A stretch of DNA of 64,000 nucleotides from positions 124,001 through 188,000 of the forward strand of contig NZ_JAHIAB010000002.1 in assembly GCF_018760365.1 (NCBI RefSeq), read 5' to 3'. Origin of the DNA: Pseudooceanicola endophyticus. Its GTDB lineage: Bacteria; Pseudomonadota; Alphaproteobacteria; Rhodobacterales; Rhodobacteraceae. The notes below the pieces were generated by a model. That model had not been told where the DNA came from and ran no database searches. It saw nothing but the letters and a program-made list of their open reading frames with translations. The position numbers were made by a program, and so were the translations under genes. Numbering within the stretch: position 1 is the first letter of the stretch; every line of letters begins with the position of its first letter. This document shows, piece after piece, positions 7,947 to 17,942 of this stretch.

Positions 7947-8021
7947 TGGAGCGGGCGAGGCGATTCGAACGCCCGACCCTTACCTTGGCAAGGTAATGCT
8001 CTACCCCTGAGCTACGCCCGC
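7947..8021 (-). tRNA. tRNA-Gly (GCC), copy 4 in transcription order
   Basis: The 75-base gene reads from the minus strand as GCGGGCG acceptor arm, AGCTC...GAGC D-arm, TTGCCAA anticodon loop (anticodon GCC), a GTTCGAATC T-arm loop and CGCCCGC, ending in an encoded CCA. The acceptor stem pairs 7/7. It is identical to the next three copies. Confidence 0.97.
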
Positions 8022-8067
8022 TTCCATGAGACCTGACGCGTCTCTATTTCGCTCCCGAAGGAGAATT

Positions 8068-8142
8068 TGGAGCGGGCGAGGCGATTCGAACGCCCGACCC
8101 TTACCTTGGCAAGGTAATGCTCTACCCCTGAGCTACGCCCGC
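8068..8142 (-). tRNA. tRNA-Gly (GCC), copy 3 in transcription order
   Basis: Same 75-base sequence as the neighbouring copies, with anticodon GCC and encoded CCA. It is separated from copy 4 by 46 bases that contain a CTCC-TTCG-GGAG mini-hairpin on the minus strand, probably a processing spacer. Confidence 0.97.
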
Positions 8143-8188
8143 TTCCGTGAGACCTGACGCGTCTCTATTTCGCTCCCGAAGGAGAATT

Positions 8189-8263
8189 TGGAGCGGGCGA
8201 GGCGATTCGAACGCCCGACCCTTACCTTGGCAAGGTAATGCTCTACCCCTGAGCTACGCCCGC
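8189..8263 (-). tRNA. tRNA-Gly (GCC), copy 2 in transcription order
   Basis: Identical to copies 3 and 4. The 121-base unit (gene plus spacer) is repeated almost exactly, pointing to tandem duplication. Confidence 0.97.
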
Positions 8264-8315
8264 TTCCCTAAGACCTGACGCGTCTTTATCTCGCCTCCCG
8301 GGGTGGGAGGAAACC

Positions 8316-8390
8316 TGGAGCGGGCGAGGCGATTCGAACGCCCGACCCTTACCTTGGCAAGGTAATGCTCTACCCCTGAGCTACGCCCGC
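8316..8390 (-). tRNA. tRNA-Gly (GCC), first copy in transcription order
   Basis: Identical gene body to the other three. Its downstream spacer differs: it is 52 bases and has a CCTCCC/GGGAGG hairpin in place of the CTCC-TTCG-GGAG one, so this copy is the oldest or was separately edited. A promoter lies just upstream (8391-8445), with TATACA as the probable -10 on the minus strand and TTGC about 17 bases before it. Confidence 0.97.
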
Positions 8391-15935: not shown

Positions 15936-16079
15936 GGGGGCGCCGCCCCCGTCTCCTGCGGAGACTCCCCCGGGATATTTCCGGCCAGATGACGGGGAGC
16001 GCGGCCTTGCCGCTTTCATCTTTCCACAAATATGGCGGGGGTGAATGGAGCCGCAGGCTCCAGAGGGGGCAGAGCCCCC
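15936..16079. repeat. Modular palindromic repeat, copies 2 and 3 (head-to-head pair)
   Basis: The forward copy at 15936-15992 has GGGGGCGCCGCCCCC, then a GTCTCC-TGC-GGAGAC hairpin, then CCCCCGGGATATTTCCGGC ending in CAGATGA. The inverted copy at 16013-16079 reads TTTCATCTTTCCACAAATATG, then GGGGG, then a TGGAGCC-GCA-GGCTCCA hairpin, then GGGGGCAGAGCCCCC. The pair fills the space between the helicase gene and the sRNA array. Confidence 0.9.
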
Positions 16080-16095
16080 TTCCTGCTGCGCAAAT

Positions 16096-16132
16096 GAAAA
16101 CGGCGACGCCCGGGAGGAGGTGGGCGCCGCCG
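16096..16132 (-). terminator. Terminator of the ccaF1-CcsR transcript, itself carrying a CCTCCTCCC loop
   Basis: On the minus strand CGGCGGCGCCC pairs with GGGCGTCGCCG (10 of 11 positions, with one G-T) around the loop ACCTCCTCCC, followed by TTTTC. It is both the sixth motif hairpin of the array and an intrinsic terminator. Confidence 0.8.
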
Positions 16133-16362
16133 TCAATGCGCGACTGCCAGGGAGGAGGAGAGGCAGCCACTCAGGGGGCCGGTCGGGGTTGGCAGGGAGG
16201 AGGAGAGCCTTGCCCGGTCCGGTCATGCTCGCCCAGGGAGGAGGAGAGGGCGATCATTCTTTCGAAGCTTGCGCTTCCTTGTCAGGGGAGCGGCGACACC
16301 GGGAGGAGGAGAGGTGCCGCCGCAGGTTTCAGTGGCCCGGGGAGGAGGAGAGGGCCACTGGA
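16096..16362 (-). ncRNA. CcsR-like sRNA array: six hairpins exposing CUCCUCCUCCC
   Basis: Downstream of the DUF1127 gene, the minus strand has six hairpins with the anti-Shine-Dalgarno motif in the loop (motif centres near 16345, 16306, 16241, 16200, 16156 and 16115). Five contain CTCCTCCTCCC and the last CCTCCTCCC. Stems differ in sequence but pair, for example CAGTGGCC/GGCCACTG for the first. Motif spacing pairs them (39, 41 and 41 bases within pairs, 65 and 44 between), suggesting three sRNAs of two hairpins each. In Rhodobacter sphaeroides the CcsR sRNAs (conserved CCUCCUCCC motif stress-induced RNAs) are processed from the 3' end of a DUF1127 gene, are stress-induced and affect C1 metabolism and pyruvate dehydrogenase. 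That this array behaves likewise is inference. Confidence 0.88.
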
Positions 16363-16375
16363 ACCGATTATGTCG

Positions 16376-16588
16376 TCAGGCTGCGGCGCCGTAGGCTTCC
16401 TGGCGGGCGATGCTGTGGATCATCGCGCGGCTCAGGCCCAGGTCGGCCAGTTCGCGGGCATCGAGGCTGCTCAGTTCTTCCAGGGCCCGGCGGTAGGCGG
16501 TGTAGCGGGCGTAGCGGGCGTGCAGGTTGTCCAGCACTGCGTCGAACAGGCTGATCTTTGCGGGGCGGGTTTCGGTTGCCATTGCCAT
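16376..16588 (-). CDS. ccaF1: Small DUF1127 protein (CcaF1-like), host gene of the sRNA array
   Basis: The product is 70 residues, basic at the N-terminus. The DUF1127 core is in the C-terminal half: ALEELSSLDARELADLGLSR (about residues 37-56). In R. sphaeroides the equivalent gene (CcaF1) encodes an RNA-binding protein that influences CcsR maturation and RNA turnover. Gene order and size here match. AAGGA lies 8 bases before the ATG at 16588; a second in-frame ATG at 16582 is possible. The mRNA continues directly into the hairpin array. It is divergent from mrp across a 271-base spacer that should hold its stress promoter, but I could not identify the sigma factor with confidence. Confidence 0.9.
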   Translation of the reverse strand: MAMATETRPAKISLFDAVLDNLHARYARYTAYRRALEELSSLDARELADLGLSRAMIHSIARQEAYGAAA

Positions 16589-16859
16589 CTTGCGGATCCT
16601 TCGTCTCGGGCGCGGCGGGCCGGTGTGGTGTTCCGGGGGTCGGTGTCCGTCGCTGTTGACACTCAACTTAGAGATTTGCTGCACCTGCACAACGGACGCT
16701 TCCTCATTGCCGCCATGCAGAATGTGCATAAGGATTATTGCCCCTGGGTCACCTTCCTTGCCGGGCGACCCGGGGGCAGGCGCGGCGGCATTTGCCCCGC
16801 GCCCCTTGCTGTCGTGGCGAAAATGCGCACCTATGCGGCAAGACCGGAAGGAGAACGAC
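16589..16859. promoter_or_regulatory. Divergent promoter region between ccaF1 and mrp
   Basis: This is 271 bases. The part near 16650-16730 is less GC-rich and should hold the promoters for both genes. In R. sphaeroides the homologous ccaF1-CcsR promoter is driven by the RpoH-type heat-shock sigma factors. I see no match strong enough to assign -35 and -10 boxes. No small gene is evident. Confidence 0.4.
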
Positions 16860-17942
16860 GTGGCCCTCACCCGTGAGCAAGTACTGAGTGAACTGAAACG
16901 CATTGCCCTGCCGACCGGAGGGGACCTGGTCTCGTCCGACATGGTCCGGGCGCTCACGGTCGAGGAGGGGGCCGTGCGCTTCGTCATCGAGGCCCCCGAT
17001 GCCGGGACCGCCCGCAAGATGGAGAACATCCGCGCCGCCGCCGAGGGACTGGTGCGCGAGATCCCCGGCGTGACCCGGGTCAGCGCCATCCTGACGGCGC
17101 ATGAGGGCGGTGCCCCGGCGCGGCCCGCGCCGAAGGCGCCCAGCCTGAAGATCGGCGGCCACCCCACCGGCGGCAACGCGCCGCTGAAGCCGGCCTCGGT
17201 CAAGCGGATCCTGGCGATCGGCTCGGGCAAGGGGGGCGTGGGCAAGTCCACCGTCTCCTCCAACCTTGCGGTGGCGCTGGCGAAGCAGGGCAAGAAGGTC
17301 GGCCTGCTCGATGCCGATGTCTACGGCCCCTCTCAGCCGCGGATGATGGGGGTGAACCGCCGCCCGGCCTCTCCGGATGGGCAGAGCATCGAGCCGTTGA
17401 AGGCCCATGGCGTGACGCTGATGTCCATCGGGCTGATGGTGGACGAGGACAAGGCCGTGGTCTGGCGCGGACCGATGCTGATGGGGGCGCTGCAGCAGCT
17501 GCTGACCCAGGTGCAGTGGGGCGAGCTGGACGTGCTGCTGGTCGATCTGCCGCCCGGCACCGGCGACGTGCAGCTGACGCTGTGCCAGCGCGCCGCGCCC
17601 TCGGGGGCGATCATCGTGTCCACTCCGCAGGACGTGGCGCTGCTGGATGCGCGCAAGGCCATCGACATGTTCAACACGCTGAAGACCCCGGTGCTGGGCC
17701 TGATCGAGAACATGGCGGCCTTTGTCTGCCCGCATTGCGGCGAGACCTCTCATCCCTTCGGTCATGGCGGTGTTGCCCGCGAGGCCGAGAGGCTGGGCGT
17801 GCCGCTGCTGGGCACCCTGCCGCTGGATCTGGAGACCCGGCTGGCCGGCGATGCCGGTGCGCCGGTGGCGCTTCAGGAGGGGCCGCAGGCCGAGGCCTAT
17901 GCCCGGCTGGCCCGCGGCCTGATCGAAAGCGGCATGGTCTGA
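16860..17942 (+). CDS. apbC: Mrp/ApbC/NBP35-type iron-sulfur cluster carrier ATPase
   Basis: The product is 360 residues. An N-terminal MIP18-like (DUF59) domain (residues 1-80) is followed by a deviant Walker A, SGKGGVGKST (about residue 122), and the P-loop ATPase core with LLVDLPPGTGDVQ (about residue 228). A CPHC pair at about residue 290 is the [4Fe-4S]-binding site of the dimer. ApbC proteins load and transfer Fe-S clusters to apo-enzymes in the cytoplasm. Start: GTG at 16860, 6 bases after AAGGAG. An in-frame ATG 27 bases earlier lacks a good ribosome site. Confidence 0.93.
   Translation: MALTREQVLSELKRIALPTGGDLVSSDMVRALTVEEGAVRFVIEAPDAGTARKMENIRAAAEGLVREIPGVTRVSAILTAHEGGAPARPAPKAPSLKIGGHPTGGNAPLKPASVKRILAIGSGKGGVGKSTVSSNLAVALAKQGKKVGLLDADVYGPSQPRMMGVNRRPASPDGQSIEPLKAHGVTLMSIGLMVDEDKAVVWRGPMLMGALQQLLTQVQWGELDVLLVDLPPGTGDVQLTLCQRAAPSGAIIVSTPQDVALLDARKAIDMFNTLKTPVLGLIENMAAFVCPHCGETSHPFGHGGVAREAERLGVPLLGTLPLDLETRLAGDAGAPVALQEGPQAEAYARLARGLIESGMV

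Follow-up and report, generated by a model that had tools for sequence, protein, structure and literature searches.

Why would a bacterium keep six hairpins with nearly the same loop in a row behind a short DUF1127 gene, and what turns them on? A reading of this Pseudooceanicola endophyticus locus from its letters had proposed a CcsR-like array behind a CcaF1-like DUF1127 gene, the layout of a stress-responsive Rhodobacter sphaeroides locus, and Rfam matches, stem covariation and synteny support that proposal. Judged by its sequence the array belongs to the cuckoo/CcsR-type (CIN1) loci and is nothing out of the ordinary for this known alphaproteobacterial kind of sRNA. Its identity is thus already known, and the unexpected part is the nearly dedicated promoter in front of it. 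By the window we mean the whole stretch of 64,000 nucleotides that was analysed.

Anatomy and family membership of the array

The gene and the hairpins behind it follow one another on the minus strand:

16376-16588, minus strand: DUF1127 gene, CcaF1-like, 70 aa (Pfam PF06568, E 8.3e-13)
16325-16365, minus strand: hairpin 1 (unit 1, A), motif 16348-16340 in the loop; folds, lies in the CcsR1 match 16365-16285 and covaries in orthologous first units
16290-16323, minus strand: hairpin 2 (unit 1, B), motif 16309-16301, 11-bp stem; folds, with 97.5% of cells paired among 37 distinct sequences
16264-16277, minus strand: spacer hairpin GAAGC-GCAA-GCTTC without motif, then A-rich GAAAGAAT; folds, with analogues in relatives
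16225-16257, minus strand: hairpin 3 (unit 2, A), motif 16244-16236; folds
16179-16222, minus strand: hairpin 4 (unit 2, B), motif 16203-16195, weak interrupted stem; folds
16137-16173, minus strand: hairpin 5 (unit 3, A), motif 16158-16150; folds, inside the ar14 match 16222-16096
16096-16134, minus strand: hairpin 6 (unit 3, B), motif 16120-16112, 13-bp stem followed by TTTTC; motif-bearing intrinsic terminator by sequence and fold

The core CCTCCTCCC occurs seven times on the minus strand of the window and not once on its plus strand; six copies, with 5' ends at 16348, 16309, 16244, 16203, 16158 and 16120, make up the array and the seventh lies at 1702. All six array motifs are placed within hairpin loops by folding, with a mean unpaired probability of at least 0.99, and none of 200 shuffles was as stable as the 280-nt array fold (z = -7.0), in agreement with the six minus-strand loop motifs of the sequence-only reading. 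The single variant that it had noted is there as well, five motifs being CTCCTCCTCCC and the last one ACCTCCTCCC, and so are the position directly after a gene of 70 codons (CDS 16588-16376) and the T-tailed terminator, a last hairpin at 16134-16099 that closes with TTTTC. From the DUF1127 stop to the first motif there are 27 nt, as compared to 20-27 nt across 17 rows of the genus. Of the claim that the stems differ but pair, the pairing stands except in hairpin 4, which is weak and interrupted, with 3 bp next to the loop and then internal loops. The spacing of 39/41/41 given for the pairs needs correction, since the motifs follow one another at 39, 65, 41, 45 and 38 nt, i.e. at 39/41/38 within pairs and at 65 and 45 between them. 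The spacer hairpin together with the A-rich GAAAGAAT is a candidate processing region that would separate units 1 and 2; by folding it has analogues before internal units in relatives and before stand-alone copies, and in several relatives (14 genomes, one of which was not folded) a small motif-less hairpin and then an A/U-rich stretch lie between units. The spacer hairpin, like the conserved promoter and five stand-alone copies outside the window, had gone unmentioned before.

At its gathering threshold Rfam reports four tRNAs in the whole window and nothing at the array. These tRNA genes stand in tandem at 7950-8390 on the minus strand and have identical scores. The matches at the array come from a laxer search with E-values and lie below the gathering cut-offs: CcsR1 (RF02791; cut-off 65.3) matches both hairpins of unit 1 (16365-16285, 43.6 bits, E 3.7e-9) and a second time at 16170-16095 (33.4 bits), and ar14 (RF02344; cut-off 58.8) matches hairpins 4-6 over its full model length (16222-16096, 46.3 bits, E 4e-7). 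The check with a CcsR covariance model, proposed earlier, gave a match by E-value but a score under the cut-off. Because the gathering scores for RF02791 and RF02344 are missed, we file the array not under Rfam CcsR1 or ar14 but under the broad cuckoo RNA family and under CIN1. The former is defined by at least two adjacent hairpins with CCUCCUCCC loops and variable stems (accessible text of PMC3927594), the latter is the term for the locus type in the accessible text of PMC10253847; the array shows both the hairpins and a short same-strand DUF1127 gene directly upstream. A 6C RNA match (33.5 of 47 bits, E 0.021) is weaker than those of CcsR1 and ar14 and was rejected. A CRISPR-like reading, prompted by one weak plus-strand DR30 match (22 of 50 bits), was discarded because only the loop core repeats.

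Among known systems the locus most resembles R. sphaeroides ccaF1 and CcsR1-4, where a DUF1127 gene (71 aa) also precedes tandem RNAs and a 3' Rho-independent terminator, and where the RNAs are processed out of the ccaF1 3' UTR with involvement of RNase E and CcaF1 (accessible parts of PMC10253847 and PMC8625941). Different from the four CcsR RNAs there, three two-hairpin units are found here and their CcsR1 score stays below gathering. With SmelA075 and SmelA099, which have three or four hairpins (PMC3927594, as far as accessible), the array shares CCUCCUCCC loops and variable stems, whereas it has six hairpins and lies behind a DUF1127 gene. The AbcR sRNAs under LsrB/VtlR belong to another RNA family, yet they are LysR-controlled and act on transporter mRNAs (accessible text of PMC7486931), both of which are predicted here. 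Finally, Sinorhizobium ar14/NfeR1 likewise has three anti-Shine-Dalgarno hairpins, with a motif-bearing last model hairpin and then U. As opposed to the array here, NfeR1 is a free-standing trans sRNA that is not known to have a DUF1127 gene.

Paired hairpins, copy number and relatives

The alignment used for covariation comprises 38 orthologous first units, those of the window and of 37 of the 54 eligible loci. Pairing holds in 92.6% of its cells, double changes are seen at 14 of the 18 pairs, and changes on both sides occur in 107 cells, as compared to 32.1 with shuffling and at most 33 with sliding. Stems of at least 7 bp are formed by 94% of 481 hairpins in 81 loci, whose 8-nt 5' arms comprise 216 distinct sequences, but by 35% when the arms are shuffled. 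Of 59 motifs outside the defined chains 69% have such stems too; as these may be array members missed by the gap rule, they provide no clean background.

Pairing of the hairpins themselves was judged in 54 arrays (window included) with at least 4 motifs and all gaps below 85. In 47 of them every within-pair gap is smaller than every between-pair gap (shuffled: mean 5.2, maximum 12), which supports a unit of two hairpins. The three sRNAs of two hairpins each that had been postulated therefore hold as an evolutionary unit, as judged by this phase and by even motif counts; less so between units 2 and 3, where the gap is a short 45 nt without an A/U-rich linker, the spacer hairpin and A-rich linker being found only before unit 2. 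In many arrays of the genus the gap before the last pair is 46-50 nt.

Searching 60 genomes for a two-motif pattern gave matches in 34 (reversed control, 8 matches in 5 genomes), namely in 22/22 of the genus including our own, in 9/14 others of the family and in 3/24 more distant ones. Of 36 genomes searched with the DUF1127 protein, 21 contain a match at E 1e-8: the protein's own, 20 of the 21 others of the genus (41-55% identical) and none of 14 distant ones. In G003, the sole genus genome without such a match, the array lies at a contig end. Within the named loci, which are the best 80 of 165 relatives, uvrD and/or mrp adjoin the DUF1127 gene in 77, and motif counts range from 0 to 14 with six being commonest (26/80). 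This contradicts the previous view of a lineage-specific copy number. Nor is the motif-bearing terminator lineage-specific, as had been supposed: a T-run follows the motif-bearing last hairpin in 58 of 59 loci with normal last-pair spacing (by a loose test, which L120 and L122 pass only through a more distant run), and the ar14 model ends in such a hairpin too. Counts are even in 19 of 22 genus arrays, and the three odd ones are that of G003, cut by the contig end, and those of G001 and G004, each with one degenerate motif by eye. Near-identical units are repeated in G005, G008 and G011, and by these sequences copy number is probably driven by tandem duplication of pairs. The largest array has 17 motifs (L353), with up to 16 elsewhere; in L353 and in L064 of G027 (15 motifs) the spacings are about 37-54, without a clear pair phase.

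The organism's own genome carries five stand-alone two-hairpin copies, L011-L015 (on C4, C7, C12 at 30 kb, C42 and C46), all outside the window. They score 48.9-60.5 bits each against CcsR1 (cut-off 65.3), two are near-identical, and they have an upstream motif-less hairpin and a LysR-like box. A model built from them scores the five copies at 85-122 bits and nothing else in the 22 genus genomes above 63, its other listed matches falling in DUF1127 arrays. With no off-array match in the 21 other genus genomes this looks like a lineage-specific dispersal, although stand-alone motif pairs of other sequence, one each in G002, G007, G009, G014, G018 and G019, speak against exclusivity. Nine single CTCCTCCTCCC matches (L016-L024, including the one at window position 1702) show neither a two-hairpin fold nor a CcsR1 or ar14 match and were set aside.

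The promoter and its distribution

Upstream of the DUF1127 gene, 17 sequences of the genus share an almost invariant block in their alignment, which in the window contains the following elements:

16715-16728, minus strand: LysR-type (LsrB-like) box TGCACATTCTGCAT, i.e. TGCA-N6-GCAT with T-N11-A; by sequence, conservation and the PnfeR1 motif
16687-16692, minus strand: predicted -35 TTGTGC, 22 nt after the box; invariant in 17 aligned genus sequences
16665-16670, minus strand: predicted -10 TAAGTT after a 16-nt spacer; by genus alignment

The promoter thus reads TTGTGC-N16-TAAGTT, and with an inferred start site at about 16658 the box would occupy about -72 to -59. It was the alignment that revealed the block, a pattern of TTG-N16-19-[CT]TA with a leading pyrimidine having found no match in 20 genomes. 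Among the best 80 of 165 relatives, an exact TGCA-N6-GCAT lies within 350 nt upstream in 65 loci (0.010 per 350 nt elsewhere in the same loci), TGC[AG]-N6-GCAT precedes TTG[TC]GC in 74, and the spacing from box to TTG is 22 or 23 in all 74; this promoter stands before 67 of the 67 loci with at least 3 motifs and 7 of the 13 with fewer.

Which regulator would bind such a box? According to the accessible text of PMC10746234, LsrB binds TGCA-N6-GCAT between -72 and -60 in the promoter of S. meliloti NfeR1, an ar14 cuckoo RNA, as established by EMSA and mutation, and the LsrB/VtlR-like box of the window has the same form near -72 of the inferred start site; activation by LsrB is experimental there and predicted here from the box. 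The LsrB of Brucella, called VtlR, acts positively on three DUF1127 genes (accessible part of PMC12595884). As LsrB is described as unique to Rhizobiales in what is accessible of PMC11975290, a LysR-type box at DUF1127-cuckoo units of Rhodobacterales is unexpected, and a literature search, mostly without subscription papers and based on accessible text, found no work tying a LysR box to such units in Rhodobacterales or CcsR to LysR in Rhodobacter sphaeroides. In our genome a trxB-lsrB neighbourhood was not recognised, the two best trxB neighbourhoods holding, by eye, an Lrp-like gene (C1) and another LysR-like gene (C15). NtrC was rejected, its spacing of TGC-N11-GCA differing from the TGC-N8-GCA found here, and so was PhaR, whose R. 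sphaeroides sequence CTGCN3GCAG (PMC12542648, accessible text) is absent from the window promoter. This sequence does occur upstream of some stand-alone copies (L011, L014, L015, L053, L057) and in some genus array promoters, and a link of the stand-alone copies to PHB storage is possible on these grounds.

How closely is this promoter tied to such loci? Its downstream part, GCATRGCNGMNWTG-N10-15-TTGTGC, has exactly one match in 21 of 22 genus genomes and none in G003 (reversed control 0). In 120 genomes of the family, each of another genus and our own included, the signature is present in 77 (73 once, 4 twice; control 0) and absent from 43. We read 40 of its 81 matches (36 genomes) in list order, adding genomes with two matches and leaving out those whose arrays were already in hand and one match at a contig end. 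The left half-site TGCR-N6, which is no part of the search pattern, precedes 39 of the 40. A DUF1127 match, called by an alignment-derived profile (a simple regular expression recognised 3/40), lies downstream of 34, of which 28 have at least one motif behind the gene, 27 at least two, and 6 none; the other 6 lack a DUF1127 match but are followed by 2 to 8 motifs on the same strand, the nearest of which lies 77-216 nt past TTGTGC. All 40 therefore lead into DUF1127 or motifs, the DUF1127 match of L335 being weak (E 1e-4), as compared to at least 2 motifs in 2 of 320 other 900-nt stretches. As the named and genus loci had served to design the pattern, and some of the genomes read likely belong to species already among the named ones, this is not a fully independent test. 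G093 and G139 (L337-L340) have the DUF1127 gene and the cuckoo motifs apart, in two loci that both bear this promoter.

The box alone is unspecific, ATGC-N7-GCATRGCNG having 2-6 matches in most genus genomes, mostly away from arrays; specificity comes from box and TTGTGC together. The related pattern ATGC-N7-GCAWRGCNG has 11 matches at 10 places in our genome, one palindromic (control 2): the array and the five stand-alone copies, which formed the design set, a DUF1127 gene on C23 outside that set, and three places where neither a cuckoo RNA nor a DUF1127 gene was recognised. The C23 gene (L226, C23:266028) is a second DUF1127 gene, and besides the box it has a -10 region resembling that of the stand-alone copies. 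Taken together, the sequences compared suggest that box and TTGTGC form a promoter that looks nearly dedicated to DUF1127/cuckoo units in many related bacteria.

Proposed mechanism, targets and rival explanations

To the anatomy, predicted folding, covariation, pair unit, orthology and promoter signature found directly here, our preferred explanation adds transcription, a regulator, processing and targets; it sees in the locus a CIN1-kind cuckoo-RNA transcription unit that blocks the Shine-Dalgarno sequences of uptake-protein mRNAs, and we put its probability at about 0.72. A LysR-type activator at TGCA-N6-GCAT, together with the TTGTGC promoter, would give rise to a single transcript, made up of the DUF1127 mRNA and three two-hairpin units and closed by the motif-bearing terminator. 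By homology to R. sphaeroides ccaF1-CcsR, cuts between the units would be made by RNase E with participation of the DUF1127 protein, and each unit would display two loop copies of UCUCCUCCUCCC (the last one being ACCUCCUCCC). These loops would pair with strong GGGAGGAG-type Shine-Dalgarno sequences and thereby prevent the translation of, chiefly, solute-uptake proteins that belong to TRAP, tripartite-tricarboxylate and ABC transporters. With one common loop seed and freely varying stems, copy number would set dose and not specificity.

The predicted targets come from our own genome, in which GGGAGGAG-N3-12-ATG has 57 matches (reversed control 8). Of these, 56 loci were read, the 57th overlapping one of them, and 10 were dropped as short or duplicate. 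Solute-binding proteins account for 14 of the remaining 46 (6 DctP, 3 TctC, 3 SBP_bac_1, 1 Peripla_BP_4, 1 Peripla_BP_6), with four further transporter parts (TctB, DctQ and 2 ABC_tran), whereas the control GAAAGGAG (30 of 51 matches read, one dropped) yields 0 solute-binding proteins and 2 transporter parts among 29 (14/46 versus 0/29, Fisher p 5e-4; for Pfam annotation all 29 controls and 20 of the 46 candidates were scanned singly). The duplex of the loop with a GGGAGGAG-type Shine-Dalgarno sequence is predicted at -17.9 kcal/mol and that with the DUF1127 gene's own at -4.2, a weak pairing by which the transcript would spare its own gene. The targets are thus predicted to be mRNAs of solute-uptake proteins, although abundant binding proteins may simply favour GGGAGGAG, with no sRNA involved.

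Several points count against the preferred explanation: the sub-gathering Rfam scores, the weak hairpin 4, the ar14 match across hairpins 4-6, the description of LsrB as confined to Rhizobiales, the RpoH promoter in R. sphaeroides, the 43 of 120 genera without the signature, and the 6 of 40 signature matches whose DUF1127 gene is followed by no motif. How else, then, could the hairpins be explained? That the plus-strand open frames at 15989-16876 and 16045-16554, which do exist, encode a repetitive protein with the motif as codons deserves practically no credence, as many spacings in relatives (40, 41, 65, 67, 70, 74 and others) are not multiples of three and stem covariation follows RNA pairing. 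It is also quite improbable that the hairpins are nothing but a 3' UTR that stabilizes or terminates the DUF1127 mRNA without targets in trans. They do lie behind the gene with the terminator at their end, and one transcript is likely, but a stabilizer needs no fixed loop sequence, whereas the loop motif here is kept while the stems covary; moreover, in 6 of 40 cases the promoter leads to motifs without DUF1127, and our genome has its five stand-alone copies. Closer to the preferred explanation is a different cutting pattern, in which a CcsR-like RNA is set free from unit 1, while hairpins 3-6 (or 4-6, ar14-like) stay together with the terminator in a single longer RNA. The full-length ar14 match, the 45-nt gap with its counterparts of 46-50 nt in the genus, and the restriction of spacer hairpin and A-rich linker to unit 2 all point that way, and without an A/U-rich linker in the gap units 2 and 3 might indeed stay one RNA. 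Given the pair phase across arrays and a final pair with its own A stem and terminator, we still regard this as unlikely.

It is possible, if doubtful, that the box is bound by some other dimeric regulator than a LysR-type one, or that the block is an alternative-sigma (RpoH) promoter, given that the R. sphaeroides ccaF1-CcsR promoter depends on RpoHI/RpoHII (PMC10253847, accessible text) and that no LsrB orthologue was identified in the two best trxB neighbourhoods. A box at about -72 would nevertheless be far upstream of sigma contacts; it has the T-N11-A of a LysR site, its spacing to TTG is fixed at 22/23, and in motif and position it equals the LsrB site of PnfeR1 in the accessible text of PMC10746234. 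We therefore continue to favour a LysR-type activator.

For the family, we tentatively suggest, at somewhat less than even odds, that a near-invariant promoter with an LsrB-type box at -72 is dedicated to DUF1127/cuckoo units across Rhodobacterales and follows the modules where they are split or dispersed, and that the cuckoo RNAs of Rhodobacterales and Rhizobiales share an ancestral LysR-controlled circuit that throttles solute uptake, with copy number as its dose dial. A 14-bp box within a signature that occurs about once per genome makes the regulator of cuckoo RNAs outside Rhizobiales directly testable, and box and signature point to a single circuit, dedicated to DUF1127 and anti-Shine-Dalgarno RNAs, by which some signal is coupled to them. 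Unit number varies widely whereas the seed stays constant, which offers a natural series in which to ask whether the copy number of an sRNA sets its dose.
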